54,083 nucleotides of DNA, taken from a bacterium (GTDB taxonomy: Bacteria; Sysuimicrobiota; Sysuimicrobiia; Sysuimicrobiales; Segetimicrobiaceae). The stretch is from contig DATGJN010000003.1 in the NCBI GenBank assembly GCA_035295165.1, forward strand, positions 1 to 54,083, in the 5' to 3' direction. The stretch's first letter is position 1; the number at the start of each line of letters is the position of its first letter. A program made the position numbers and the translations under genes. Below are positions 8,931-33,615 of the stretch, in pieces. A model generated the notes under the pieces. That model saw only the letters and a program-made list of their open reading frames with translations. It was not told the origin of the DNA and did no database searches.

Positions 8931-10733
8931 CTAGGCCTTCCGCCTCCAGTCGGCGATGTTCCACGTCTCGTCGTCGAACGGCGTCATGTTCGCCCCGGTG
9001 TCAAGCGTGTTCGCCCGCGCGGAGACGAGTTTCCGATCGATCAGCGGGATGGCCACGCCCTGTTCTACGACCCGGTCGTTCGCCTTGATCCACAGATCTG
9101 CGTTCTTCTTCGGGTCAAGTTCGTTCTGCGCCCGCTCGTACAGATCGTTGTACGTCTTGTCCACCCAGCGGGTGCAGGCGATTCCGGACCAATCGTTCTC
9201 CTTTTGCGGGATGTCCTTGGCCGCATCTCCCGTGTAGAACCGGGCCATGTACGCGCTGGGGAACGGCGATCCGAACCCGGTCGTGAACATCTCCACGTCG
9301 GTGTAGAAGTGCGCCCACGTATCGTTGTTCCCGGGCGAGCTGCTGAAGAAGACCCCGGCATCGATCGACTTGAGCGTCGTGGCCACGCCGATCTTCTCCC
9401 ACCCCGCCTTGATGATCTCCTGTTCCTTCTGGCGGAGCGAGTTGACGCTGGTCTGATACACGACCTGTAGCTTCACGCCGCCCTTCTGCCGAATGCCGTC
9501 GGGACCGCGCGTGTACCCGGCCTCGTCGAGCAGCTGGTTGGCCCGCGCCAGGTCGAAGGCGATCTTCGTGTTCTTCGACGCCAGGTTCGTCGGCGTGGTC
9601 AGCGTGTTCGGGGTTGCGTCGCCCGTCGTCCCGTACAGCTGCTGCGCCATCGTCTGGCGGTCCGAGGCGAGCGCGAGCGCCTGCCGGACCTTCGGGTCTG
9701 TGAGGAACGGGTGCATCGACTTCACCGAGGACCGTTGGTCGTCGACGACCTTGTTGGGATCGGACTGATTCAGATAGATTTGCTCAACGCCACCGCCCGC
9801 GGCGGTGAGAATCTGGCCCTTACCCCCCTTGGCAATGTTCTGCAGCACCGGCCACTCAACTTGGAGGTTCCACGCGTAGTCGTATTCGCCCGTCTCCAAG
9901 GCCGCGCGCGCGGCGGACGTGGCATCCCCGCCACCTTTCATCTGGACCTGACTGAACGCGGGTTTGTTCGGATCGCGGTAGTTCGGGTTGACGGCGTACA
10001 CGACGAGGTCGCCCGGCCGGAAACTGTCCACCATGTACGGCCCGGTGCCGAAGGACTTCGTATTGAACGGCGCGTTCCGCGCGTTGCTGCCGATGTACGC
10101 GTCGAGCGCGTGCCGCGGGAGGATCATCCCGTTGATGCCCACGAATGGCAGGTACCACGCCGGCGTGGGCGCCTTAAAGGTGACCTTCACGGTGAGCGGA
10201 TTCACCGGTTCCACCTTCGCGACGTTCACGTAGCTGCCGTACGTCGTCGCCCCGGTCTCCTTGTTGGCGACGAACTGGTAGGTAAACACCACGTCGTCGG
10301 ACGTGAACGGACGTCCGTCCGCCCACTTGACACCCGGCTTCAGCTTGTACGTGACCGATTTGCCGTCGGCCGCAATTTGGCCGTTGGCGCGGGATGGCAC
10401 CGTGGCCGCCAGCACGGGGGTAAATCGCCCACTCGCGTCGACCGACAGCAGCGCCTCGCAGCAGAGGTGCGCGGCGTGGAAGTCCTTCGTGCCCTGGGCC
10501 AGGTGCGGGTTCAGAATCGTGGGCGCCTGCCAGTACAGCAGCTTGAGCACACCGCTCGCGCCGCGCCCGCCTGCGGCTGCGGCCCACGCGGGCTGCGGCG
10601 TCGGCGACGCCAGCACAGCGGTGATGCCACCCGCCGACACCCCCAACGCGACGAGGCGGGCGATCACGTCGCGGCGGCTCAGGCGCCCTTGCCGGAGGTC
10701 GCGGACGAGCAGATCGAAGTCCCTCTGTCTCAT
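8931..10733 (-). CDS. Family-5 extracellular solute-binding protein, copy 2
   Basis: A 600-aa SBP_bac_5 protein, collinear with the downstream copy (6904-8703) over its whole length with long identical blocks, including the central SSSPGNNDT region and the C-terminal ADWRRKA. It carries the same twin-arginine-like export signal (LSRRDVIARLVALG, then a hydrophobic stretch). It starts at ATG 10733 and is the first gene of the binding-protein/permease cluster. The 227-bp gap to copy 1 and the repeated upstream element suggest each copy may have its own promoter. Retention of two diverged receptors beside a single permease pair suggests broadened or split substrate range, which is inference. Confidence 0.93.
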   Translation of the reverse strand: MRQRDFDLLVRDLRQGRLSRRDVIARLVALGVSAGGITAVLASPTPQPAWAAAAGGRGASGVLKLLYWQAPTILNPHLAQGTKDFHAAHLCCEALLSVDASGRFTPVLAATVPSRANGQIAADGKSVTYKLKPGVKWADGRPFTSDDVVFTYQFVANKETGATTYGSYVNVAKVEPVNPLTVKVTFKAPTPAWYLPFVGINGMILPRHALDAYIGSNARNAPFNTKSFGTGPYMVDSFRPGDLVVYAVNPNYRDPNKPAFSQVQMKGGGDATSAARAALETGEYDYAWNLQVEWPVLQNIAKGGKGQILTAAGGGVEQIYLNQSDPNKVVDDQRSSVKSMHPFLTDPKVRQALALASDRQTMAQQLYGTTGDATPNTLTTPTNLASKNTKIAFDLARANQLLDEAGYTRGPDGIRQKGGVKLQVVYQTSVNSLRQKEQEIIKAGWEKIGVATTLKSIDAGVFFSSSPGNNDTWAHFYTDVEMFTTGFGSPFPSAYMARFYTGDAAKDIPQKENDWSGIACTRWVDKTYNDLYERAQNELDPKKNADLWIKANDRVVEQGVAIPLIDRKLVSARANTLDTGANMTPFDDETWNIADWRRKA

Positions 10734-13064: not shown

Positions 13065-13146
13065 GTGCTAGACTGGAGACGCCAACGCTGGAGCGCGGCG
13101 CGCGCTGTCGCGCACGGGGGCCAGGCGGTCGAGGGGGCACGGAGTG

Positions 13147-13797
13147 ATGGACAGTCCACGGATGCACGGGTTTCTGTTCCTGCGGGTTCCCGCGGGACGC
13201 CGGACGTCGCACGAGGCGGGGCGCGCGCGGGAGGCGATCGAGTCGGCGGCCGCAACGCCGGGGGTCGCCGGCCTGTACACGTACAGCCTGGTCGGTCTGC
13301 GCGGCGATGCCGATCTCGGAGCCTGGATCGCGGCGGCCGAGCCGGACGCCTATCAGGAAGCCGCTCGCCGGCTGCTGCACACGGACCTTGAGTTGACGTG
13401 GAGCCTGTGGGGCTTCGTGCGCTCGTCCCAGTACACCGGGCGCGACGGCACGAACGTCAAGATCCCCGGGGAGCGCCGGCGCTTTCTCGTCGTATACCCG
13501 TTCAGCAAGACCCACGAGTGGTACCAGATGGCGCCCGAGATCCGGCGGACGATGATGATGGAGCACTCCCGGTTCGGCCACAGCTTCGACGACATCGAGC
13601 AGTTGCTGCTCTACTGCACGGGCCTCGCGGACTGGGAGTTCGTGGTGGGGTACGAGACCGACGACCTGACCCGGTTCCAGGAACTCGTCACCGGGATGCG
13701 CAGCACCGCCGGTCGGCCGTACACACTGCGCGACACGCCGACGTTTGCCGGTCGCTACGGATCGGTCGAAGAGACGCTGCGGCGCGTGTTCGGATAG
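13147..13797 (+). CDS. HemQ-like / chlorite-dismutase family protein
   Basis: The product (216 aa) belongs to the chlorite dismutase superfamily. The related HemQ enzyme decarboxylates coproheme III to heme b in Gram-positive-type bacteria. Visible HemQ features are PFSKTHEWYQM (the Tyr-containing coproheme region), RRTMMMEHSRFGHSF with the proximal heme-ligand His, LADWEFVVGYETDDLTRFQELV and the C-terminal STAGRPYTLRDTPTFAGRY. No conserved Arg typical of true chlorite dismutase is obvious, so HemQ function is favoured. ATG at 13147 is used; a GTG at 13144 is equally possible given GAGGGGG at 13131. The next gene follows after 12 nt, so they are likely cotranscribed. Confidence 0.85.
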   Translation: MDSPRMHGFLFLRVPAGRRTSHEAGRAREAIESAAATPGVAGLYTYSLVGLRGDADLGAWIAAAEPDAYQEAARRLLHTDLELTWSLWGFVRSSQYTGRDGTNVKIPGERRRFLVVYPFSKTHEWYQMAPEIRRTMMMEHSRFGHSFDDIEQLLLYCTGLADWEFVVGYETDDLTRFQELVTGMRSTAGRPYTLRDTPTFAGRYGSVEETLRRVFG

Positions 13798-13809
13798 CGG
13801 AGGCGCGAG

Positions 13810-14319
13810 ATGTCACCCGTTCACGTCTACGACGTACTCCTCCGAGCTCGACAGAAGCTGTTCGAGTGGGTGCGCCCGCTCGACCAGGCTCAGTACGCGC
13901 AGCCGTTTCCGTTCGGGGCGCGGTCCGTCCGCGGCTGTCTCGTGGAAATCGCCCGGGCGGAACTGTTTCTCGCGATGCGGCTCCGGGAGGAGCCGCTGCC
14001 GCCGCTCGCCGAGTGGCCGATCAACGAGCAGCGCCTGCCGACATTCGCGGAGCTCGAGCGCGTGTGGACGGCGCAGTCGCAGCAGACGCGCGCCACGCTG
14101 GCCGAGACAACGGATTGGGACCGTACCGTGACCTGCCGCCTCGTGCGGCCGAACCAGACAGTACTGCTCACGGCGACAAAGGCGGACATCGCCACGCAGA
14201 TCATGATGCACGAGGTCCATCACCGCGCGCAGGCCATGGCGATGCTGCGGCAACTGGGCGTGGAGGCCCAGAACCTGGACCACATCCGCTTTACGCAAAC
14301 CACGGTGCCACAGAACTAA
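13810..14319 (+). CDS. DinB-family protein
   Basis: A 169-aa four-helix-bundle protein of the DinB/DUF664-like group, which in many cases are metal-dependent thiol (bacillithiol or mycothiol) transferases. The C-terminal metal-binding segment HEVHHRAQAMAMLRQLGVE is typical of the family. In the first helix the usual His before an acidic or hydrophobic stretch appears to be replaced (CLVEIARAE), so the three-His site may be incomplete. GGAGG precedes the ATG by about 6 nt, and only 12 nt separate it from the hemQ-like gene. Its role beside a heme-synthesis gene is unknown. Confidence 0.75.
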   Translation: MSPVHVYDVLLRARQKLFEWVRPLDQAQYAQPFPFGARSVRGCLVEIARAELFLAMRLREEPLPPLAEWPINEQRLPTFAELERVWTAQSQQTRATLAETTDWDRTVTCRLVRPNQTVLLTATKADIATQIMMHEVHHRAQAMAMLRQLGVEAQNLDHIRFTQTTVPQN

Positions 14320-20977: not shown

Positions 20978-21203
20978 AGGTCTTCCTCCCTCTCGGATGG
21001 TCGGTACGGGCGCATGTCTCCTTTCATGACGGCCACACCGCGGTCCTGCGCATGGACGAGACGCGCATACCCCGATGCCGCGGCGACCGATCCGGTCCGC
21101 GACATCGGGCGGCCAGCCCCCCCGAATCGGGTCCGGGCCCGATCCACCAGACGCAGCCAAGCGGGCATGATAGGGGTCAAACAACGAACCGGGGGTGGAC
21201 ACG

Positions 21204-21482
21204 ATGGCCGTCGCAACATCCGCTTACACGCAGCACACCGAGAGCCTGCCCGTCTTTCAGGACACCGTCTGCCGGGTGTGCGGCCACGACGACGCCGTGG
21301 GAGTGCGACACCACGGGACCGTCCTCTGCCTGGACTGCTACCGACGGACGGCGCGCGCGGAGCGGCTCGCCAGCCGACACGGCGCCAATGCCTCGATCCG
21401 GCGCATGAGGCTCGACCACATGGGCCTCGGACGCCATCCCCAACCGGCGTCGCCCGAGCACCCGCCCACTGTCTCCGCGTAG
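21204..21482 (+). CDS. Small zinc-ribbon-like protein
   Basis: A 92-aa protein that I do not recognise as a named family. It contains two CxxC pairs, CRVCGHDD and LCLDC, separated by about 20 residues (roughly 25-47), which suggests a treble-clef or zinc-ribbon metal site. The remainder is basic and low in complexity. ATG at 21204 follows GGGGGTGG by about 6 nt; a GTG at 21195 is a weaker alternative. It lies 142 bp before the release-factor-like gene and 226 bp from the divergent peptidase start. A nucleic-acid or ribosome-binding role is only a guess. Confidence 0.6.
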   Translation: MAVATSAYTQHTESLPVFQDTVCRVCGHDDAVGVRHHGTVLCLDCYRRTARAERLASRHGANASIRRMRLDHMGLGRHPQPASPEHPPTVSA

Positions 21483-21624
21483 CCCGGCCAGGCGCCACCG
21501 GGTGCCGCCGCCCGGGACGGGCCGACGGATCGGGCGCCCGCCGGATACTCAGCGCCGACGCCGCCGCCTAGAGTGGAACTGGGGAACGGGGCAGTAGCGT
21601 GACGACGGACTCGGAGGCTGGCGC

Positions 21625-22800
21625 ATGATTGATCCGAGACAGTTGACTCAGCTTACGACGCTCGACCGCGACAATGTGCTATCGATGTCGCTCGACATCG
21701 ACCCGACGAAACCGGAGCACCAGACGCCGAATCCGGCGTACCGAATTTGGCTGCACCGAGCCGTGCACGATCTGGTGGAGCGGCTTCCCGAAGGGCGTCG
21801 CGAGGAAGCGCGACGGACGGCCCGCCGGATTCTTGCGCGCGTGGACGAAACCCCGCCACGCGGCCGCGGGCTGGCAGTGTTTGCAGGTCCCGATCTGTGG
21901 CGCGAATACCCCCTGCCCATCCCGCTCCCCAACCGGGTGCGGTACGGCCGGCCCGATCTCATGGGGCTGTTGTGGGCATCCGCCGAGTACAGCCCGTACG
22001 CGATCCTCATCGTGGCCCGCGATCACGCGCGGATCGCCGTCGCATACCTCGGCGGCGTCGCCATCGTGGACGATCAAGTCCTCCATCTGGATCCGAGCGA
22101 CTGGCGGTTTAAGAGCGGCCGCGTCCGCACCGCCGCCCGGCTCTCCGGCATCTCCGCCGGCCGTGGCACGCAGCGCGACGCGTTTGATGCGCGCATCGAT
22201 GCGGAGCACCGCAAATTTTGGCACGAGGTCGCGACGTCGGCGACCCGCGACCTCGACGAACGCGGGATCGATCGGCTGATCCTGGCGGGCCCGGAGGAGG
22301 CGACGAGCGCGGTGCGCACGGCCCTGCCGGCACCGCTCAGGAACCGCATTGTGGGCACGATCGGGCTTGCGGCAACCGCTCCCGTGGAGGAGATCGCACG
22401 TCGGACGCTGCCGCTGGCGCTCGCAGACCGTCACCGGCATGAGGGCGCACTCGTTGCGGACGTTCTGGCCGGGGGCCCCGAAGGCGACCGAGGCGTTGCC
22501 GGTCGCGCGGCGACCTTGGAGGCGCTGATGAGCGGCGACGTTCGCGTGCTCGTCTCCGCCCGCGATGTGGACGGGAACGTCTGGGAGTGCCACGCCTGCG
22601 GGTACATCGCCGCGGCTCAGGCCGAGCGGTGCCCGATGTGCGGTGGGGCGTTTGAGAGCGCGGCGCTCGCGCAAGTGCTCCCGGTGTTCGCGCGCCGCCA
22701 CGGGGCGACGCTCGAACTGATCGGGCCGCAGCAATCCGGCCGCCTCGCGGACGGCCTGGGAGGGGTGCTTCGGCATCCCCGGCTCGCGCGGCCCGCGTAG
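21625..22800 (+). CDS. baeRF / VLRF1-type release-factor-like protein with zinc ribbon
   Basis: A 391-aa protein resembling the bacterial archaeo-eukaryotic release factor families (family 10-like). These are built from eRF1-type domains, and relatives such as VLRF1 hydrolyse peptidyl-tRNA on stalled ribosomes. It starts with the LDRDNVLSMSLDIDPTK strand typical of these proteins. A central eRF1 domain-2-like segment has AILIVARDHARIAVAYLGG and FWHEVATSATRDLDERGIDRLILAGP. A C-terminal zinc ribbon has CHACG ... CPMCG (about residues 325-345). No GGQ-like motif is obvious, so catalysis is uncertain. It appears to lead a plus-strand group with UspA, a phosphoribosyltransferase and RtcB. Confidence 0.75.
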   Translation: MIDPRQLTQLTTLDRDNVLSMSLDIDPTKPEHQTPNPAYRIWLHRAVHDLVERLPEGRREEARRTARRILARVDETPPRGRGLAVFAGPDLWREYPLPIPLPNRVRYGRPDLMGLLWASAEYSPYAILIVARDHARIAVAYLGGVAIVDDQVLHLDPSDWRFKSGRVRTAARLSGISAGRGTQRDAFDARIDAEHRKFWHEVATSATRDLDERGIDRLILAGPEEATSAVRTALPAPLRNRIVGTIGLAATAPVEEIARRTLPLALADRHRHEGALVADVLAGGPEGDRGVAGRAATLEALMSGDVRVLVSARDVDGNVWECHACGYIAAAQAERCPMCGGAFESAALAQVLPVFARRHGATLELIGPQQSGRLADGLGGVLRHPRLARPA

Positions 22801-22835
22801 GCGCGGGGACCGGCACAGCAAAGGAGGGTACTGCG

Positions 22836-23270
22836 ATGCGAGTAGTGCTCGCCACGGACGGCTCGCGACACGCGGAACGCGCGGCCCAGTGGGCGGTCGC
22901 ATTTGCCACTAAGCTCGGAGACGTCGACGTGACGCTCGTCAACGTCGGGCACATCCCGGCCGCGCCGATCACCGGTCCGGGCGTACACGGCGTTGTGGAG
23001 TTCCGGGTCGTCACGGAGTCGCTCGAGCGGGCGGGTGCGGAGATCCTCGCCCGTACCGCAGAGTTGTTCAAGGGGAAGGCCGTCGAGATACGTTGTCTGT
23101 ACCGCACGGGCGACCCGGCACACGAGATCCTCAAGGTCGCCGAGGAGGCCCACGCGGATCTGATCGTCCTCAGCCGGCGTGGGCTCGGCCGGATCGGCGG
23201 GCTGATCCTCGGCAGCGTCAGCGAACGCGTCCTCCACGGAGCCCACTGCCCTGTGGTCGTCGTGCAGTAG
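22836..23270 (+). CDS. Universal stress protein (UspA family)
   Basis: A 144-aa single-domain Usp. It opens with MRVVLATDGSRHAERAAQWA and ends with the ATP-binding G-2x-G-9x-G(S/T) pattern in RRGLGRIGGLILGSVSERVLHGAHCPVVVV. The protein is expected to bind ATP and act as a homodimer in stress responses, though its partners are unknown. AAAGGAGGG precedes the ATG. It lies 35 bp after the release-factor-like gene and 77 bp before a phosphoribosyltransferase gene. It resembles the Usp at 46328, so the two may be paralogues. Confidence 0.93.
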   Translation: MRVVLATDGSRHAERAAQWAVAFATKLGDVDVTLVNVGHIPAAPITGPGVHGVVEFRVVTESLERAGAEILARTAELFKGKAVEIRCLYRTGDPAHEILKVAEEAHADLIVLSRRGLGRIGGLILGSVSERVLHGAHCPVVVVQ

Positions 23271-23347
23271 CGCGGGAGGGCCCTGGCCGCGGCCCGGGCG
23301 CGATCGTCGCCCTGTCGGGCCTGCGGCGGCCCGGGAGGTGGTTCTCG

Positions 23348-24010
23348 ATGATCTTCATGGATCGCCGAGACGCCGGCCGGCAGCTGGCCGACGCGCTGAT
23401 GCGACGCACCCTCGAACACGCTACGATCCTCGGGCTCGCGCGGGGCGGTGTGGTCGTCGCCCGAGAAGTCGCCCGCGCGCTCCACTCCCCCTTTGACGTC
23501 GTCGTCGTGCGCAAGATCGGCGCGCCGGGCAATGAGGAGTTCGCGATCGGCGCCGTTGGAGAGGATGGCGCGGCAACGCTCGACGCCGACACGATCGCCG
23601 CGTTGACGATCCCGACCACCTACGTCGACGACGCGATCGGACGCGCCCGCGAGGTGATCCGGCGACGCGCGGCCCTGTACCGGCGCGACGGACCGCCCGA
23701 GCTCCGCGGCAGAACGGCCGTGCTCGTCGATGACGGGATCGCGACGGGACACACGATGGAGGCCGCGATCGAAACCGTGCGGCGCTGGGGGGCCGTGCGG
23801 GTCGTCGTCGCAGTCCCCGTGGCCGCGCAAGACACGGCCCGGCGTCTGCGGGGCCTGGTCGACGAGCTCGTGGTGCTGTCCGAACCGGCCCACTTCATGG
23901 CCGTCGGGCAGTTCTACCGGTTGTTCCCGCAAGTGAGCGACGACGACGTGCAAGACGCGCTCGGGATGCCGGCCGGAACGGCCCGCGAGGCCGGCCCGCA
24001 GCCGGCGTAG
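23348..24010 (+). CDS. Phosphoribosyltransferase-domain protein
   Basis: A 220-aa protein with a type-I PRTase fold. The PRPP-binding loop is clear: VLVDDGIATGHTMEAAIETVRRWGA. Upstream blocks are LGLARGGVVVAREVARAL and VVRKIGAPGNEEFAIGA. This resembles the stand-alone PRTases often found next to Usp or dienelactone-hydrolase-like genes, whose substrate is unknown; it is not a recognisable apt, hpt or upp. GGGAGGTGG lies upstream of the ATG at 23348; ATG 23357 is an alternative. Spacing of 77 and 72 bp to its neighbours fits an operon with the Usp and rtcB genes. Confidence 0.85.
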   Translation: MIFMDRRDAGRQLADALMRRTLEHATILGLARGGVVVAREVARALHSPFDVVVVRKIGAPGNEEFAIGAVGEDGAATLDADTIAALTIPTTYVDDAIGRAREVIRRRAALYRRDGPPELRGRTAVLVDDGIATGHTMEAAIETVRRWGAVRVVVAVPVAAQDTARRLRGLVDELVVLSEPAHFMAVGQFYRLFPQVSDDDVQDALGMPAGTAREAGPQPA

Positions 24011-24082
24011 CCGCGGAGAGGGTGCCGCCACGATGTCGCGGAGGTCGCCTTCGCGCAGGACTCGCCGGGCAGGAGGCGAGCG

Positions 24083-25546
24083 ATGAGCGTCTCCCGAACG
24101 ATCGCGCGCCTGCGGCGGCTCGACGCCTACCGGTGGGAGATCCCCGTGGACTACCGACCGGGGATGCGCGTACCGGGCGTCATCTACGCGGATGAGCGCG
24201 TGCTGCCCGATCTCGAGGAGGATCGCGCGATCGATCAGGTCGCGAATGCCGCGACGCTGCCGGGCGTGGTGCGTTGGGTCGTCGCCATGCCAGACATCCA
24301 TTGGGGGTACGGCTTCCCGATCGGCGGCGTGGCGGCGATGCGCTTCGACGACGGCGTCGTCTCCCCGGGTGCCGTGGGCTACGACATCAACTGCGGCGTT
24401 CGTCTGCTGCGCAGCGCCCTGAGCGAGGAAGAGATCCGGCCACACCTCGCCGCGCTGGCCGACCGACTGTTCCACGCGGTCCCCACCGGTGTCGGCGCGC
24501 AGGGCGGTCTCGTGCTCGACCGAGCAGCGTTGGACGACGTCCTCGTCGGCGGCGCCGCGTGGGCCGTCGGGCGAGGCCTGGGGCGCCCGGGCGATCTCCG
24601 CCACATCGAGTCACAGGGCACCATCCCCGGCGCGCGCCCCGAGACCGTGAGCGCGCGGGCGTGCGTCCGCGGTCGGGATCAACTCGGCACCCTCGGCGCG
24701 GGAAACCACTTCCTCGAGGTGCAACGGGTCGATGAGATCTACGACCGCGACCTCGCTGCGGCGTTCGGCGTCAACCGGCTCGGGCAGATCACCGTGCTGC
24801 TCCATTGCGGCTCTCGAGGGTTCGGGCACCAGGTCTGTGACGACTACCTGCGTCTCTGCGCGCCGCGCGCGGCGGGCTACGGGATCACCCTGGTCGACCG
24901 CCAGCTGGCGTGCGCGCCGATCCGGTCTCCCGAAGGTGAGGCGTATCTCGGGGCGATGGCCGCCGCCGCCAATTACGCGTTCGCCAACCGGCAGGTCATG
25001 ACGCACCGGGTCCGCGAGGTGTTCGAGGAGGTCCTCGGTCGCACCGCCGCGTCGCTCGACATCGAGATCGTGTACGACGTCGCGCACAACATGGCGAAAA
25101 TCGAAGAACACGTGGTCGACGGGCGGCGGCTGACGGTGTGCGTGCACCGCAAGGGTGCGACACGCGGATTCCCCGCGGGGCACCCGGACGTGCCGTCCGA
25201 ATATCGGGACGTCGGCCAGCCGGTGTTCGTCCCGGGAGACATGGGCCGGTACTCGTACGTCGTCGTCGGGACCCAGCGTGCACTCGCGGACGCGTTTGGG
25301 TCGGCCCCGCACGGCGCGGGGCGGCTGCGCAGCCGCGGGGCCGCCCGGCGCCTGTTGCGCGGCGTCGATCTCGTGGACGCGCTCGCCCGGCGCGGCGTGC
25401 TCGTCCGCGCCAAGAGCCGAGGGTTGCTCGCCGAGGAAGCGTCGGAAGCGTACAAGGACGTGGCGGATGTCGTGCGGGTGAGCGACGGGGCGGGCCTCAC
25501 ACGACGCGTCGTACGACTCCGACCGCTCGCTGTCATCAAAGGGTGA
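24083..25546 (+). CDS. rtcB: RNA-splicing ligase RtcB
   Basis: Joins RNA 2',3'-cyclic phosphate or 3'-phosphate ends to 5'-OH ends using GTP and Mn2+, as in tRNA repair and splicing. The 487-aa protein has all hallmarks: AMPDIHWGYGFPIGGVAA, VGYDINCGVRLL with the metal-binding Cys, LGAGNHFLEVQ, LHCGSRGFGHQV, HNMAKIEEH and the guanylylated His region CVHRKGATRGFPAGH. It ends with the usual RSRGAARR and YKDVADVVRV blocks. No intein is present. It starts with ATG at 24083 preceded by GGAGGCGAGCG. The archease gene, encoding the RtcB activator, converges on it, separated by a hairpin. Confidence 0.96.
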   Translation: MSVSRTIARLRRLDAYRWEIPVDYRPGMRVPGVIYADERVLPDLEEDRAIDQVANAATLPGVVRWVVAMPDIHWGYGFPIGGVAAMRFDDGVVSPGAVGYDINCGVRLLRSALSEEEIRPHLAALADRLFHAVPTGVGAQGGLVLDRAALDDVLVGGAAWAVGRGLGRPGDLRHIESQGTIPGARPETVSARACVRGRDQLGTLGAGNHFLEVQRVDEIYDRDLAAAFGVNRLGQITVLLHCGSRGFGHQVCDDYLRLCAPRAAGYGITLVDRQLACAPIRSPEGEAYLGAMAAAANYAFANRQVMTHRVREVFEEVLGRTAASLDIEIVYDVAHNMAKIEEHVVDGRRLTVCVHRKGATRGFPAGHPDVPSEYRDVGQPVFVPGDMGRYSYVVVGTQRALADAFGSAPHGAGRLRSRGAARRLLRGVDLVDALARRGVLVRAKSRGLLAEEASEAYKDVADVVRVSDGAGLTRRVVRLRPLAVIKG

Positions 25547-25587
25547 CGCCGGAGCTCCGCTCCCGCAGGCGGACCGGAGCCGGCGTC
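25545..25587. terminator. Bidirectional hairpin between rtcB and archease
   Basis: An inverted repeat (GACGCCGG-AG-CTCCG at 25545-25559 and CGGAGCCGGCGTC at 25575-25587) forms a 13-bp stem with a 2-nt bulge. It fills the 45-bp gap between two convergent stop codons. There is no T-run on either side, but the position fits a shared terminator. Confidence 0.6.
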
Positions 25588-25591
25588 TAGT

Positions 25592-26035
25592 TCAGACGTC
25601 GAGGAGGACCCGGGCTTCCCACCCGCCGTTGATTCGCGTGAGCTCGAGATTGTGATACGTTGCCGCCTTCACCACCCGACGGGACGTGTGCCGACGCTCG
25701 TCAAACGCATCCCCGACAAGATCGGCCTCGAGCGCGGTCTCGGTGAGTGACCTCACGCGGCACCGGCGCGGAAGAAATCGCCGGGCGTCCAGCAGATACA
25801 GGATCTCATTGAGCCATGCCGCGAGCAGCGTCTCACGGTCGGAGGCGGAGACGGTGACGCGCTCGACGATGGCCTCGCGGAGGCCGCGGGGATCAACGAT
25901 CAGCGAGACCAGCCCGTACGCCGCGTTGACGTAGAGCGCCCGCAGCGTCCGCCCGCGGACGATCAGCCCGATATCGGCTGTGTGCTCAAACGTCTCGAAC
26001 GGCCGCAGCCCGTTCCGGCGCCCCTTCGCGCTCAT
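25592..26035 (-). CDS. Archease
   Basis: A 147-aa protein of the archease family, which activates RtcB by promoting its guanylylation and multiple turnover. The N-terminal FETFEHTADIGLIVRG carries the conserved Asp; the C-terminal KAATYHNLELTRINGGWEARVLLDV is typical, ending with the metal-binding Asp close to the terminus. ATG at 26035 follows GGGGTGG by 5 nt; a GTG at 26044 would add three residues. It is convergent with rtcB rather than in the same operon, so balanced expression would need a separate promoter. The functional pairing follows from the family; only the adjacency is seen here. Confidence 0.92.
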   Translation of the reverse strand: MSAKGRRNGLRPFETFEHTADIGLIVRGRTLRALYVNAAYGLVSLIVDPRGLREAIVERVTVSASDRETLLAAWLNEILYLLDARRFLPRRCRVRSLTETALEADLVGDAFDERRHTSRRVVKAATYHNLELTRINGGWEARVLLDV

Positions 26036-26242
26036 CGCGCCCACCCCGCGTCATCGTAGCGGCACTCGAGCGGCAGCGCCATCGGGCCCTCGATCCATTC
26101 GCGTTTCCCGCCGGGTGCCGGACCGCCCCCGTGCGCACCGGGCCGCAGACGAGCGAATCGGGCGACCGCCTGATTCCCCAGGCGCTCGCGACGGGCTACC
26201 GTGAAGATGGAACCGGAGCCGTTTTCGACGGGGGTGAGGCAG

Positions 26243-26728
26243 ATGCAGCCTACATGCGTCGACCGCTTGTGCGCCTATCTCCGGGAACAGGGCATCGCGC
26301 ACACGGCCAGCCACCATCCGACCCGATTCACAGCCCAGGAGCTCGCCCAGGTGGAGCATGTTCCCGGCAACCTGGTCGCCAAGGTCGTCCTGATCCTCGC
26401 CGACGAGACACTGGAAATGGTCGTGCTGCCGGCGACGATGAAGGTGGACGCGGAGTTGGTGGAGGCCGAGACCGGCGCCGAACGCGTCCGACTCGCCCGC
26501 GAGGACGAGTTCGAGCACGTGTTTCCGGACTGCGAAGTCGGCGCGATGCCGCCGTTTGGCCAGCTCTACCACGTCCCCGTGTTGGTGGACTCGACGTTGG
26601 CGCGGGATCCGGTGATCCTGTTCAACGCCGGCACCCACCAGGACGTGATCACGATGTCCTACACCGACTTCGAGCGGCTGGTGAAGCCGCGGGTCGGGCG
26701 CTTCTCGAGAGTCGCTCAGGCAGCCTGA
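26243..26728 (+). CDS. YbaK/EbsC-type aminoacyl-tRNA deacylase domain protein
   Basis: A 161-aa stand-alone editing-domain protein. Members hydrolyse misacylated tRNAs (for example Cys-tRNA-Pro or Ala-tRNA-Pro). Features include YLREQGIAHTASHHPTRFTAQELAQVEHVPG at the N-terminus, KVVLILADETLEMVVLPATMKVD (the conserved Lys and strand), and the GAMPPFGQLYHVPVLVD and FNAGTHQDVITM blocks. GGGGGTGAGG lies a few bases before the ATG at 26243; an upstream ATG at 26201 is less likely. It faces away from the archease gene. The exact tRNA specificity is unknown, but it adds a third translation-quality function to this region. Confidence 0.88.
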   Translation: MQPTCVDRLCAYLREQGIAHTASHHPTRFTAQELAQVEHVPGNLVAKVVLILADETLEMVVLPATMKVDAELVEAETGAERVRLAREDEFEHVFPDCEVGAMPPFGQLYHVPVLVDSTLARDPVILFNAGTHQDVITMSYTDFERLVKPRVGRFSRVAQAA

Positions 26729-27157: not shown

Positions 27158-27817
27158 CTACTCCCCCGTCCCCGCCAAGTAACGTACAAACCACGCGCGC
27201 GCCAACAGCGCAACCGCGACCAGGGTCCCGGGCTCTTCAAACAGGTGCGTTGCGCCTGGGACGATCGCGAGCTCCTTCTCCGTCTGCAACGCACGCAGCG
27301 CGTCCCGGTTCAACGCGAGGACCGTGTGGTCTCGTTCTCCGACGATCAACAGGGTGGGCGCGCGAACTCGCGCCAGCGCGTCCCCGGCCAAGTCGGGGCG
27401 TCCTCCGCGGGACACGATCGCACCGACCGCCGGGCGTTCCGCGGCCGCGATCAACGCGGCCGCCGCGCCCGTGCTGGCGCCGAAGTAGCCGATCCGGAGC
27501 CCACGGGTATCGTGGTCGCGGAGGACCCAGTCCGTCACCGCGAGCAACCTCGCGCCCAGGAGTGCGAGATCAAATCGCAGGTGGGCGGTCACCGCATCCG
27601 CCGTCCCCTCGTCGGGTGTCAGCAGGTCCGTCAGCAGCGTCCCAAGACCGACCTCGCGGAGTGCGCTGGCGACGAGCCGGTTCCGGGGACTGTGGCGACT
27701 GCTGCCGCTCCCGTGCGCGAACAGCACAATCGCCCGGGCCCCCTCCGGAATCTCCAGCACACCCTCAAGCGTGCCGCCTTCGACGGAGATCCGGACCGCC
27801 CGCTCCCCGATAGGCAT
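27158..27817 (-). CDS. Alpha/beta-hydrolase (dienelactone-hydrolase-like)
   Basis: A 219-aa cytoplasmic hydrolase with the alpha/beta fold. Visible elements are the oxyanion region LFAHGSGSSRHSPRNR, the nucleophile elbow YFGASTGAAAAL with the catalytic Ser, VGERDHTVL with the Asp and PGATHLFEEPGTL with the His. These are typical of the dienelactone-hydrolase-like proteins frequently found beside phosphoribosyltransferase and Usp genes. Here the PRTase lies about 3 kb away. Substrate is unknown. The start ATG at 27817 follows GGAGGGTTG. Confidence 0.85.
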   Translation of the reverse strand: MPIGERAVRISVEGGTLEGVLEIPEGARAIVLFAHGSGSSRHSPRNRLVASALREVGLGTLLTDLLTPDEGTADAVTAHLRFDLALLGARLLAVTDWVLRDHDTRGLRIGYFGASTGAAAALIAAAERPAVGAIVSRGGRPDLAGDALARVRAPTLLIVGERDHTVLALNRDALRALQTEKELAIVPGATHLFEEPGTLVAVALLARAWFVRYLAGTGE

Positions 27818-28100: not shown

Positions 28101-28568
28101 ATGACAACGACATCCGAACCGATCGTCCTGGCGCCGACTGATATGTCTGCGGCGTCGATCGACGGGGTAGCGTACGCTGTCGGGCTCGTCCGCCGCCTCC
28201 AGGCGCGGCTTGTGCTGTTGCATGTGCTATCGCAGCAGCACGTCGACGAACGGGTGGACGCCGGGGAGTTCGTTGACGTGCAACTCGAGACCGAACACGC
28301 GAGACTGCAGCACTGGTATTTTGCGTCGGTGCCGCGGGCGGCGCGCGAGTTTATCCAGGCCGACCTGAAGGTGGCCATCGGCGATCCGGCCGCGGAGATC
28401 CTCGCGCTCGCCGAGACCCTCCCGGCGGAGATGGTCGTGATGACGACGCACGGCCGCACGGGGCTGCAGCGAGCCCTGCTCGGGAGCGTTGCGGAGGCCG
28501 TCGTGCGGCAGGCACCCTGCCCCGTGCTCACGCTCCGGGCGGCCCGCGTGCTGGTCGCCGCGAGGTAG
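28101..28568 (+). CDS. Universal stress protein (UspA family)
   Basis: A 155-aa single Usp domain, more diverged than the other two Usp proteins of the window. It starts with PIVLAPTDMSAASIDGVAYA. The C-terminal half has MVVMTTHGRTGLQRALLGSVAEAVVRQAPCPVLTL, which carries the G-2x-G-9x-G(S/T) ATP-binding pattern. The protein is expected to be cytoplasmic. Upstream are three phased ATCGGGC motifs that may be regulatory. It converges with the branching-enzyme gene, with a perfect hairpin between them. Confidence 0.92.
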   Translation: MTTTSEPIVLAPTDMSAASIDGVAYAVGLVRRLQARLVLLHVLSQQHVDERVDAGEFVDVQLETEHARLQHWYFASVPRAAREFIQADLKVAIGDPAAEILALAETLPAEMVVMTTHGRTGLQRALLGSVAEAVVRQAPCPVLTLRAARVLVAAR

Positions 28569-28598: not shown

Positions 28599-28627
28599 AG
28601 CCGGTAGGCGATACCCGCCTACCGGCT
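28599..28627. terminator. Perfect 12-bp hairpin between usp and glgB
   Basis: AGCCGGTAGGCG, a 5-nt loop, then CGCCTACCGGCT: a perfect inverted repeat about 30 nt after the usp stop that also spans the stop codon of the convergent glgB gene. It can act for both strands. No T-run follows. Confidence 0.65.
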
Positions 28628-30964
28628 GTGGGTCAGCGTGGCTAGCTGGCTTTCCAGGGCGCCGGTCCGCCGGCGGTACTGCAACTCCGTGCGGACAGCT
28701 TCGAACACGTACTGCAAGACGGCCGGCGCCATCGAACACTGCCGTTCTCGCTCAAGCGTCCAGATCAGCTCGGCCAGTCCCTTTGCGGCATCCGCCGCGC
28801 CCAGGTTCCGGTCGGGCGTGCCGGCGGCCGCGCGCGCCGGGCGATCGCGGGCTCGCTCGTTCGCGGACCCCTCGGCGGCGCGGATCCACGGCACCCGGGC
28901 TGGTGTATCGAGGTCTCGGTCGGGAGGTCCCGGGGCTGTCCCCAGTGCGCCGCGCGGCGTTGCGGGCGCGCGATACTCGGGGGCCGGGCGCGCCCGCGGG
29001 CCCGCGTCGGCGTCACACGAAGATCCCGGCGGCGCCTCGTCCCACGGTGTGACCGCCTCGCTCAGGAACGCCACCGCGGCAAGCGGCGGCAACGTGACCA
29101 CGATCGAATACGGCTGACCGTGGCACGGCACCCGCTCGCTCGGCAGCCCGCCGTTGTCGATGCCGCTCCCCCCGTACTCTCGGGCGTCGCTGTTGAGCAG
29201 TTCACGCCAGAACCCGCCGCGCGGCACGCCGACCCGGTACCCGTGACGCGGGACCGGCGTGAAGTTCAGAATCCCGACGACCACGGTGTCTGCGGACGGC
29301 CCGCGCCGCACCAGGCTGATGACGCTTTGCTCGCGATCGCTACAGTCGATCCACGCGAAGCCTCGCGGATCGCAATCCCACGCGTGCAACGCGGGTTCCG
29401 TGCGGTACACTCGGTTGAGCGTCCGAACCCAGCGTTGCAGCCCGAGGTGCGGGGAGTGCTCCAACAAGTGCCAGTCGAGACTCTCGTCGTGACGCCACTC
29501 GCGCCACTGCCCGAACTCGTCGCCCATGAACAGGAGTTTCTTGCCGGGTTGCAGATACATGTACCCGAGCAGCAGCCGCAAGTTCGCGAACTTCTGCCAC
29601 TCGTCGCCGGGCATCTTCGCCAGCAGCGACCCCTTGCCGTGCACGACCTCGTCGTGCGATAACGGGAGAACGAAGTTCTCCGTGAACGCATAGAGCCCCC
29701 GGAACGTGAGCGCGTCCTGGTGGTGCCCGCGATAAATCGGATCGCGGGCCATATACTGCAGGGTGTCGTGCATCCACCCCATGTCCCACTTCAACCCAAA
29801 CCCGAGGCCCCCGCCGCTCGTCGGGCGCGACACCTGCGGCCACGCCGTCGATTCCTCGGCGATCGTCTGCACGGCCGGGTAATGCCGGTAGACCTCCTCG
29901 TTGAACCGGCGCAGGAACGCGATCGCATCGAGGTTCTCGCGGCCGCCGTGTTCGTTGGGAATCCACTCCCCCGGGCGGCGCGAGTAGTCGAGATAGAGCA
30001 TCGACGCCACGGCGTCGACACGCAGACCGTCGGCGTGATACTTCTCCAACCAGAACAGCGCGTTGCTCAACAGAAAGCTCCGCACCTCGTGCCGCCCGTA
30101 GTTGAAGATGCAGCTATGCCAGTCGGGATGCAGGCCCCGCCGGGGATCGGCGTGCTCGTACACGTGCGTGCCATCGAAGTAGCCCAGGCCGTGCTCGTCC
30201 GTGGGGAAGTGCGACGGCACCCAGTCGAGAATCACGGCGATCCCGTGCCGGTGGAAACAGTCGACGAGGTACATGAAATCCTGCGGCGACCCGTACCGGC
30301 TGGTCGGAGCAAAGTACCCGGTCGTCTGATACCCCCAGGAGCCGTAGAACGGATGCTCCATCACCGGCATCAGCTCCACGTGCGTGAAGCCCATGCGTCG
30401 GACGTACCCTGGCAGGCGGGCGGCGAGTTCCCGGTAGGTGAGGAAGCGGTAGTCCTCTTCCGGCACTCGCATCCACGACCCCACGTGGACCTCGAAGATG
30501 GCCACCGGGCTATCGAGCGCGCTGCGCCGGCGGCGCCCCGCCATCCAGTCCGCGTCCCCCCACACGTAGTCGAGATCCCAGACGACGGACGCCGTGCCCG
30601 GCGGTCGCTCCGCGCGCACCGCGAACGGGTCGGCCTTGTCGACCCGATAGCGGCCATCTCGGGAGACGATATGGTACTTGTAGAGCGCGCCGAGCGGCAC
30701 GTCCGGCACAAAGCGCTCCCAAATGCCGGACCTCGCCCGCGACCGCATTAGGTGTGACGCATTGTTCCACCCGTTGAAGTCGCCGAACACGGACACCTGT
30801 TCCGCGCCGGGCGCCCAGACGGCAAAGTGCGCGCCCGGTACGCCGTCGAGCGTCATCGGGCGAGCACCAAGTTTGTCGTACAGACGGACGTGGCTGCCCT
30901 CGTTGAACAGATAGAGATCGTCTGCGGTCAGCAACGTCGTGTCGCGGTCCACTGTCGCTTTCAT
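28619..30964 (-). CDS. glgB: 1,4-alpha-glucan branching enzyme
   Basis: Forms alpha-1,6 branches in glycogen. The 781-aa protein has an N-terminal CBM48 domain (about residues 20-120, with [23 protein letters not shown]) and a GH13 catalytic barrel. Catalytic regions are visible: region [10 protein letters not shown], region [19 protein letters not shown] (nucleophile Asp), region III TIAEEST (acid Glu) and region [13 protein letters not shown]. The C-terminal beta-domain ends near [10 protein letters not shown]. About 143 further residues are unusual: a Pro/Ala/Arg-rich linker and then a helical segment of about 50 residues. ATG at 30964 has GGGGAGG upstream at longer-than-usual spacing. The phosphorylase gene lies about 125 bp upstream on the same strand. 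Confidence 0.94.
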
Positions 30965-31051
30965 GTGCGCCACGACCTCCCCGGCATCCGCCCTACGCGC
31001 GACCGTGTATGTGTCGTGCGCTCTCGCGGTGGGCACGATCCCGTCAATGCG

Positions 31052-31105
31052 CAGTCAGCAACCTACCGCTGCCACAAGCAGTCAGCAACCTACCGCTGCC
31101 ACAAG
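31052..31105. repeat. 27-bp tandem duplication at the glgP 3' end
   Basis: Two exact head-to-tail copies of a 27-bp unit (31052-31078 and 31079-31105) cover the last codons and stop of the phosphorylase gene and the bases just after it. On the minus strand, codons LWQR-stop therefore recur directly after the real stop. It looks like a recent slippage event. Confidence 0.9.
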
Positions 31106-33615
31106 ATGAGCCCCGCTTCCGTCGGGACGTGCGCCTCGGGGTGGAAGGGCACGATCCGCGGGGTGTAGTCCGAGGCGGGCCGCGATGTCCGGACGACGGT
31201 GCGGTAGTGATATCCGTGTCCGCCGCCCGCCGTCGGCTCGTGCCGCTCCATCTCCACGCGCTCCGCCGGTGTCCCGGCCTCGAGCGCGGGCGCGTACAAC
31301 TCGACCCGCACCTGCGACGGTTCGATGGCGCCGAGCGCCACGGCGATCTCGAATTGCCACGCGTCGGCGTCGCGCTGGACCTCGAGCGGGCCGAACCGCA
31401 GCTCCGGCCAATGCGCGGCGAGGTCGCTCCACCACCCGCGCAGCCCCCGCGCGAGCCGCGCCCCGTCGGCACACCGGCGCCTCACCGCGTCCGTCGCCGG
31501 CAGATAGAACGTCTCGAGGTACTCGCGGATCATCCGATTCCCGCTGAACTGCGGCGCGAGGCGCGCCATGCTCGCCCGCATCCGGGCGAGCCACGCGCGC
31601 GGCAGCCCGGCGGCATCCCGAGTGTAGAACGCCGGAACGACTTCCTCCTCGAGCAGGCGGTACAGCTGATCCGCTTCCGCGGCGTCCCGCTCCGCATCGA
31701 CGGCGTCTCCGGGTCCCCCGAGTGCCCACCCTACGTCCGGCGCGTACGCTTCGTCCCACCACCCGTCGAGCGCTGACAGGTTCAAGCCGCCGTTCGCGAG
31801 CACTTTCATGCCGCTCGTGCCACACGCCTCCCAGGGCCGCCGAGGTGTGTTGAGCCACACGTCCACGCCCTGCACGAGTTCCTGCGCCAACGCCATGTCG
31901 TAGTCCTCGAGGAAGATCGCGTGCTCCTGCACCGCGGGGTGGGCGACGAATTCGGTCCAGGCGCGCACGATCTCTTTGCCCGTTTGGTCCGCGGGGTGCG
32001 CCTTCCCCGCGATGATGAGCTGCACCGGTCGCGTGGCGTTGGACAGCAGGTGAATCGCGCGTTTGGGATCGCGCAGCAGCAGCGCCGGCCGCTTGTACTC
32101 GGTCATCCGCCTCGCGAACCCCACGGTGAGCACGTCCGGGTCGAGCACGCGGCGGGCCCGTGCGATGGCGTCCGGGCCGGCACCCTGATGCGCGAGCTGG
32201 CGGGCCAGGCGCGCTCGCGCATACGTAATGAGATCCCGACACTTCGCGACCCGTAACGCCCACAGCGCGTCGTCGGGGATGCGCTCGATCGCCGTGGTCA
32301 ACGGAGCGACGTCGCCGCGCCAGCGCTCCCTGCCGCACGCGTCCGTCCACAGCGTGTCGGCCCACGCCGAGTCCCAGGACGGCATGTGCACCCCGTTTGT
32401 GACATGATGGACGGGGATCTCATGTTCCGGCCACCGCGGGTACAGCGGTTCGAAGATCCGACGGCTGACCGCCCCGTGCAACCGACTGACGCCGTTCGCC
32501 GCCGCGCACCCGCGCATCGCCAGGTACGCCATGCTGAACGGCTCCTGCGCGTCATGCGCGTCCCTGCGGCCGAGGGCCAGCAACTCGGAGGCGGGAATCC
32601 CGCCCGGCTCCAGGAGCCCGGGGAGCTGCGTGAAATGCCGCGCGACGAGGTCCGGAGGAAAGACGTCGAATCCGGCGGGGATCGGCGTGTGCGTCGTGAA
32701 GAGATTTCCCGCCCGGGTCGCCCAGAACGCGTCCCAGAACGACACCCCGGAGTCCGTCATGAACCGGCGGGCGCGCTCGATCACGACGAATGCCGCGTGC
32801 CCCTCGTTGAGATGGCAGATCGCCACCGGCACCCCGAGCGCCTCGAGCGCACGCCAGCCGGCCACCCCCAACACGAACTCTTGCAGAAACCGCTGCTCGA
32901 TGCCGCCGCCGTACAAGGTGCTCGTGATGCCCCGGTCCGGCGCGCCGTTCCACGGGTCGTTCGTATCGAGCAGGTACAGCGCCAGCCGCCCCACCGTGGC
33001 GCGCCAGATGCGGACCCACAAGGTCCGCCCCGGCAGCGCCAACGGAATGCGCAACCACGTCCCCTGGGCCGTGCGGGCGGGCTCGACCGGTAGGCTCGCC
33101 GGATCACTATAGGGGTAGGACTCCTGCTGACGCCCGTGTGCGTCGAGGACCTGGCGAAAGTACCCGCTGTGATAGAGCAGCCCGACGCCGACCACCGGCA
33201 CGCCCAGGTCGCTCGCAGTCTTGAGGTAGTCTCCGGCCAGCACACCGAGGCCGCCCGCGAACACCGGCAGCGCGTCGCTGAGCCCAAACTCCATGCTGTA
33301 GTACGCGATCGGGCCGATTGCGGCGCCGGGATACGCGCGGACGCACCAGCCCGGGTCCCGCAGATATCGCCGGCGCTCGTCGGTGAGACGCCGCAGCGCG
33401 TCCAGGAACTGTCGATCTCCCGCGAGCCGTTCGAGCGTCGGCCGGGGCACGTCGTGCAGGACGAGCCACGGGTTCCGAAACCGCGCCCACGCTTCCGCGC
33501 TCAACGCCCGCCACAACGCGTCGCCGGCGTGGCTCCAGGTCCACCGAAGATCCAACGCGAGCTCGTGGAGTCCTTCGAGCCCCGTGGGCAGATCAACGCG
33601 CAACGCGGCGTGCAA
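31090..33615 (-). CDS. glgP: Alpha-glucan (glycogen/maltodextrin) phosphorylase
   Basis: Releases glucose 1-phosphate from alpha-1,4-glucans using phosphate and PLP. The 841-aa protein starts with a DUF3417-like N-terminal region (ELALDLRWTWSHAGDALWRAL), typical of the Thermus/actinobacterial type of GT35 phosphorylase. PIAYYSMEFGLSDALPVFAGGLGVLAGDYLKTASDLG (broken by eye), HLNEGHAAFV and THTPIPAGFDVF follow. The PLP-binding site is in EACGTSGMKVLANGGLNLSALDGWWDE, with the essential Lys. A TTG start at 33615 has GGGTGGGTGAG upstream, and no in-frame ATG is closer. The gene is probably in one operon with glgB. Together they build and mobilise glycogen. Confidence 0.93.
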   Translation of the reverse strand: MHAALRVDLPTGLEGLHELALDLRWTWSHAGDALWRALSAEAWARFRNPWLVLHDVPRPTLERLAGDRQFLDALRRLTDERRRYLRDPGWCVRAYPGAAIGPIAYYSMEFGLSDALPVFAGGLGVLAGDYLKTASDLGVPVVGVGLLYHSGYFRQVLDAHGRQQESYPYSDPASLPVEPARTAQGTWLRIPLALPGRTLWVRIWRATVGRLALYLLDTNDPWNGAPDRGITSTLYGGGIEQRFLQEFVLGVAGWRALEALGVPVAICHLNEGHAAFVVIERARRFMTDSGVSFWDAFWATRAGNLFTTHTPIPAGFDVFPPDLVARHFTQLPGLLEPGGIPASELLALGRRDAHDAQEPFSMAYLAMRGCAAANGVSRLHGAVSRRIFEPLYPRWPEHEIPVHHVTNGVHMPSWDSAWADTLWTDACGRERWRGDVAPLTTAIERIPDDALWALRVAKCRDLITYARARLARQLAHQGAGPDAIARARRVLDPDVLTVGFARRMTEYKRPALLLRDPKRAIHLLSNATRPVQLIIAGKAHPADQTGKEIVRAWTEFVAHPAVQEHAIFLEDYDMALAQELVQGVDVWLNTPRRPWEACGTSGMKVLANGGLNLSALDGWWDEAYAPDVGWALGGPGDAVDAERDAAEADQLYRLLEEEVVPAFYTRDAAGLPRAWLARMRASMARLAPQFSGNRMIREYLETFYLPATDAVRRRCADGARLARGLRGWWSDLAAHWPELRFGPLEVQRDADAWQFEIAVALGAIEPSQVRVELYAPALEAGTPAERVEMERHEPTAGGGHGYHYRTVVRTSRPASDYTPRIVPFHPEAHVPTEAGLILWQR

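Follow-up and report, generated by a model that had tools for sequence, protein, structure and literature searches.

By sequence and predicted fold, the nearest solved relatives of a baeRF family 10 (baeRF10) protein encoded close to the RNA ligase RtcB and its activator archease in a 54,083-nucleotide stretch of DNA (the window, contig C3 of a 4.8-Mb Sysuimicrobiota genome) are the Balon hibernation factors MSMEG_1130 and Rv2629. The 2024 Nature paper on Balon reported that Rv2629 and MSMEG_1130 bind the ribosomal A site and block translation, and that the genes for Balon are found in stress operons alongside RaiA, Hsp20 and RtcB, RtcB being a common neighbour (PMC10901736). In M. tuberculosis, the DosR dormancy regulon includes Rv2623-Rv2631, in which RtcB is Rv2631, and a second block, Rv0569-Rv0574c, with a B12-dependent ribonucleotide reductase (RNR), a phosphoribosyltransferase and the nicotinamide-recycling gene Rv0573c (PMC5309233). 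Archease is reported to activate RtcB and to share operons with it (PMC3973293). A rescue and repair pair of RtcB with the release factor PrfH (RFH) is also known, and RtcB systems have been presented as a response to effectors that damage RNA (PMC6514570). We consider it fairly likely that the locus in the window is a loosely assembled island for dormancy and general stress, of this known type of cluster, combining ribosome hibernation with RNA repair.

Relationship of the release-factor-like protein to Balon

Gene identities were assigned from Pfam matches above curated cut-offs. The release-factor-like protein scored 80.2 bits against the family 10 profile, compared with a gathering score of 27.1, and gave no VLRF1 match in Pfam or NCBIfam. 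The VLRF1-like membership proposed in an initial annotation of this DNA was rejected in favour of family 10, with the closest similarity to the ribosome-silencing, GGQ-less Balon. When a family profile of 17 relatives was searched against the PDB, the best matches were MSMEG_1130 Balon (6.8e-37), Rv2629 Balon (3.4e-20) and archaeal aRF1 (8e-20), the score for Rv2629 being level with that for aRF1; with the window protein as a single sequence, MSMEG_1130 was the only PDB match. In NCBIfam, the models that scored best were the ribosome hibernation factor families of MSMEG_1130 and Rv2629, at scores far under their trusted cut-offs (61.9 versus 480 bits and 44.8 versus 320 bits, respectively), and the protein is therefore not proven to be a Balon orthologue. 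An AlphaFold model (predicted local distance difference test score, pLDDT, 88.4) had MSMEG_1130 as its top Foldseek match with a template modelling (TM) score of 0.70-0.73, compared with TM scores of 0.50 or below against full-length eRF1/aRF1, this poorer agreement possibly arising in part from a different domain orientation. The predicted three-domain aeRF1-like fold and the lack of NIKS and GGQ are shared with P. urativorans Balon, MSMEG_1130 and Rv2629 (PMC10901736).

The motifs of this Balon-like protein are mixed. Its loop reads GISAGRGTQ rather than GGQ and retains a glutamine absent from Balon. This loop glutamine (RGTQ in the window) is present in 15 of 17 sequences from the phylum, the window protein included, and most Chloroflexota members carry GGW..SQ. 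The residue is lost, unlike in most relatives, from the baeRF10 (9311-10423) of locus L196 in the Chloroflexota genome G239, which belongs to a compact baeRF10-archease-rtcB operon. In place of the EF-Tu-contacting beta-hairpin insert of Balon, the window protein has a zinc ribbon as in archaeal aRF1, and the four cysteines of the ribbon are present in 31 of 32 aligned sequences.

The glutamine and the zinc ribbon raise the alternative that baeRF10 is an active peptidyl-tRNA hydrolase that rescues ribosomes by releasing the growing peptide when they stall on broken RNA, while RtcB-archease mends the RNA, as an archaeal-type counterpart of PrfH-RtcB. Burroughs and Aravind 2019 (PMC6514570) set family 10 apart because it retains the glutamine that an active hydrolase should have, and the position of baeRF10 directly beside archease in three Chloroflexota lineages (see below) would fit such a coupling. 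Both pairs place a release-factor-type protein beside RtcB; PrfH is a bacterial-type release factor, whereas the window protein belongs to the archaeo-eukaryotic superfamily, and annotation of the genes around it showed no PrfH. The missing GGQ and NIKS motifs, the hibernation factors being nearest by both sequence and fold, the loss of the glutamine from one of two compact baeRF10-archease-rtcB operons (that of G239) and the occurrence of RtcB and baeRF10 each without the other in close relatives all argue against an active hydrolase, which we regard as unlikely. Its more specific form, in which an archaeal-type zinc-ribbon factor would hydrolyse peptidyl-tRNA through the loop glutamine and, coupled to RtcB-archease, form a convergent counterpart of PrfH-RtcB, or in which the protein would act as a dual-mode switch between hibernation and release, is distinctly unlikely.

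Linkage of baeRF10 to rtcB and archease

A relative of the baeRF10 of locus L118 was found in 60 of 400 Chloroflexota genomes, and 67 loci were examined. At three of these, archease lies immediately downstream on the same strand with rtcB close by: L118 (genome G084; Usp-Usp-NAPRT-baeRF10-archease, with rtcB and a class II RNR convergent; Usp, universal stress protein; NAPRT, nicotinate phosphoribosyltransferase), L184 (G176; Usp-Hsp20-baeRF10-archease-rtcB) and L196 (DnaJ-HtrA-baeRF10-archease-rtcB). Their baeRF10 proteins share 26-37% mutual identity and represent divergent lineages. Co-occurrence with rtcB was expected at 0.19-0.29 loci and observed at three (Poisson P 0.001-0.003, with genomes treated as independent), and the chance of an adjacent same-strand archease is far smaller, in a test framed after the data were seen. 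We take Rv0573c to be the NAPRT pncB2 and Rv2630 to be a putative archease. The gene content recalls both DosR blocks (PMC5309233), in that Usp, a Balon-type factor, RtcB and a phosphoribosyltransferase are clustered in the window and class II RNR, NAPRT or Hsp20 are added in Chloroflexota, RNR, NAPRT and Usp all being present in L118.

The linkage is nonetheless sporadic. Within the order of G239, baeRF10 is present in 44 of 48 genomes, in most cases immediately after an HtrA-like protease gene and frequently with a DnaJ-type gene (L242-L271). Among 30 loci of the order, archease stands beside it in G239 and its 95%-identical relative G855 alone, and an operon conserved within this order was rejected on that ground. 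Linkage to rtcB requires four changes when traced on the baeRF10 tree. Because linkage is seen in three Chloroflexota lineages, with archease adjacency confined to G239 and G855 in the order and four changes on the tree, it is recurrent and short-lived, as in stress islands and unlike a fixed machine. The phylum of Ammonifex has a baeRF10 relative in 9 of 398 genomes, and RtcB, archease, Usp and YbaK were not detected near any of the nine; no baeRF10 beside RtcB or archease was seen in plasmid records, some of which are unannotated.

Among the 43 genomes sampled from the phylum of the window, 24 contain baeRF10 and 35 contain RtcB, and the two genes are neighbours in the window genome alone. 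In the near-closed genome G001 they lie 1.5 Mb apart. Two genomes of the window's family (G023 and G024) have baeRF10 and lack RtcB and archease, and both sister genomes in its genus (G026 and G027) have rtcB-archease and lack baeRF10; since each thus occurs without the other, baeRF10 and RtcB are not an obligate pair. Once baeRF10, RtcB, archease and tRNA_edit had been mapped across the 43 genomes, a conserved phylum operon was rejected, and the absence of gene-order conservation in relatives, which the initial annotation had named as counting against its proposal, is what was found in this phylum. Our own RtcB and archease hidden Markov models derive from the long RtcB type, and divergent forms may escape them; Pfam searches were concordant for the 121-genome sample. 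Adjacency of rtcB and archease is common in the window's family, where the two are co-directional and not convergent as in the window. Compared with the RtcB-archease operon (PMC3973293), both genes in the window are intact and adjacent, as across the family, and differ in their convergent orientation. A YbaK gene is found close to baeRF10 in three members of the family, and Usp genes are found close to it in several genomes of the phylum; the parts thus mix in varied combinations. In trees, the RtcB of the window is placed among those of its own family but does not group with its genus, and horizontal arrival of rtcB was rejected; the window baeRF10 groups with those of G023 and G024.

These distributions bear on the alternative that a lineage-specific rearrangement placed rtcB-archease beside a baeRF10-usp unit by chance, with no functional link. 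Restriction of the linkage to one genome within the phylum, inversion of the window archease relative to rtcB, unlike in relatives with an adjacent pair, the four changes on the tree and the near-absence of archease adjacency from the order of G239 are all consistent with chance. Three further independent linkages where a fraction of one was expected, immediate same-strand baeRF10-archease adjacency at every one of these Chloroflexota loci, the matching stress genes that accompany it, and the published status of RtcB as a common Balon neighbour (PMC10901736) are harder to reconcile with it, and we judge a chance neighbourhood rather unlikely.

Several related observations were made in other genomes. 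Two further members of the window's family carry related islands without baeRF10 or rtcB (L119, G025:C47; L120, G028:C72), containing NAPRT, YbaK, an alpha/beta hydrolase and a phosphoribosyltransferase, or Usp, class II RNR and a phosphoribosyltransferase. In four genomes of the phylum (G008, G010, G011 and G016; L082, L083) the RtcB profile match is split at approximately position 50 within a single 936-961 amino acid frame, indicating probable inteins. Single in-frame TGA codons in baeRF10, phosphoribosyltransferase and RtcB genes of other genomes (L262, L110, G065:C35) are assembly errors or pseudogenes.

Gene order, transcription units and neighbouring genes

Features at and around the locus are listed in the table. 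The baeRF10, usp, phosphoribosyltransferase and rtcB genes are consecutive on the plus strand and are separated by 35, approximately 71 and 72 bp, spacing that is compatible with a single transcript and in agreement with the four-gene plus-strand operon predicted initially. The archease gene is probably its own unit outside this one, since it is on the minus strand and convergent with rtcB across the hairpin gap; YbaK, a separate plus-strand gene, is also outside because it is located beyond archease. A scan for sigma-70-like promoters found none and was uninformative. The PF01139 match of RtcB covers the full-length domain (positions 1-426), and the catalytic motifs DINCG, NHFLE, HCGSRG, AHN and HGAGR are all present.

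Table. Features of the baeRF10-rtcB locus and its immediate surroundings in the window
Position	Strand	Feature	Evidence
21195..21482	+	Small open reading frame (ORF), 95 amino acids, two CxxC pairs, possible zinc-ribbon protein (unconfirmed); overlaps start of S9 peptidase ORF	No Pfam match; sub-threshold S14-like match; low coding score
21625..22800	+	baeRF family 10 protein, 391 amino acids; aeRF1/Balon-like with three domains, the C-terminal one carrying a zinc ribbon; RGTQ loop; NIKS absent	Pfam PF18854, E 2.4e-22
22836..23270	+	Universal stress protein (Usp)	Pfam PF00582, E 1.2e-30
23342..24010	+	Phosphoribosyltransferase-domain protein (Pribosyltran), start codon approximate	Pfam PF00156, E 3.3e-18; 55-56% homologues in two same-family genomes
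24083..25546	+	RtcB RNA ligase	Pfam PF01139, E 4.3e-166; PDB matches to Thermus and Pyrococcus RtcB, ~1e-162; catalytic motifs intact
25546..25592	.	45-bp gap separating the convergent rtcB and archease genes; folds into a strong hairpin on each strand, possible bidirectional terminator	Fold -28.9 / -31.9 kcal/mol, z -1.6 / -2.7
25592..26044	-	Archease (RtcB activator)	Pfam PF01951, E 3.3e-38, positions 1-136, 131.5 bits; PDB archease matches
26201..26728	+	YbaK/ProX-type aminoacyl-tRNA deacylase (tRNA_edit)	Pfam PF04073, E 1.1e-23; NCBIfam YbaK below cut-off; homologue near baeRF10 in G023, G024, G028
27158..27817	-	Alpha/beta hydrolase, DLH-like	Pfam DLH, 1.4e-7; 62% homologue beside rtcB in L106 (G032)
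28101..28568	+	Second universal stress protein	Pfam PF00582, E 2.1e-28

Six genes of the seven-gene neighbourhood originally described were identified by Pfam above cut-off; the seventh, the putative zinc-ribbon protein, was left unconfirmed, and tblastn at E<=1e-4 recovered no relative of this small ORF from the neighbourhoods searched. The flanking genes encode a hydantoinase, an S9 peptidase, the second Usp, a glycogen branching enzyme and a glycogen phosphorylase. The last two (28619-33615) lie just past the second Usp, and energy storage genes therefore flank the island. Further upstream, a gene for a chlorite-dismutase-family protein stands beside one for a DinB-family protein (13144-14319).

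This setting also bears on whether the locus is a defence or conflict module repairing RNA cut by toxins or phage-triggered nucleases, as the published role of RtcB systems against RNA-damaging effectors might suggest (PMC6514570). The neighbours annotated are Usp, glycogen enzymes, S9 peptidase and hydantoinase, with no toxin, nuclease, nucleotidyltransferase or mobile-element gene identified among them, and baeRF10 behaves as a core gene in one Chloroflexota order, unlike a mobile defence system; a role in defence is highly improbable.

A candidate dormancy and stress island

The identities of the genes, the resemblance to Balon in sequence and predicted fold, and the sporadic recurrence of the linkage are established here. 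For the favoured dormancy and general-stress reading, we infer the hibernation activity, the co-expression and the RNA substrate of RtcB along the following lines. Under starvation, low oxygen or other stress, baeRF10 would most likely act as Balon does, entering the ribosomal A site independently of mRNA and idling ribosomes. Archease-activated RtcB would religate cleaved rRNA, tRNA or mRNA, making stored ribosomes reusable, and the Usp proteins, the phosphoribosyltransferase and the YbaK deacylase may be further members of a stress kit supporting survival. The genes would cluster through simultaneous usefulness and not as one fixed machine.

A number of observations weigh against this interpretation. 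The zinc ribbon and the loop glutamine set the protein apart from Balon, to whose two NCBIfam families it cannot be assigned at its scores, and within the phylum linkage to rtcB is confined to the window genome. The stress-operon setting, with RtcB as common neighbour, is shared with Balon (PMC10901736); unlike there, annotation of the genes around the locus in the window showed no RaiA. Unlike the DosR regulon, the locus contains glycogen genes and YbaK, and no match to a DosR-type box (KGGGACTWWAGTCCC, up to three mismatches allowed) was found in the window.

The coordinated link suggested in the initial annotation thus stands in part. A link beyond chance is indicated by the three divergent Chloroflexota lineages with stress genes and by the mycobacterial regulon (PMC5309233). 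A response specific to ribosome stalling or tRNA damage is narrower than the evidence, because gene order is not conserved in the phylum, the protein is Balon-like, the pairing is not obligate and archease and YbaK lie outside the plus-strand unit, and a general dormancy or stress role fits better. The association with RtcB is already in print; what is added is archease in the cluster, repeated independent assembly and the lack of conservation within lineages. Within the literature searched, no paper was found that connects archease and RtcB with a release factor in the way meant here.

In such an island, ribosome storage and RNA mending would be joined in one stress kit, in poorly known lineages beyond mycobacteria. 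The baeRF10 subfamily, with its predicted Balon-like fold, aRF1-like zinc ribbon and retained loop glutamine, makes the question of hibernation versus release directly testable.

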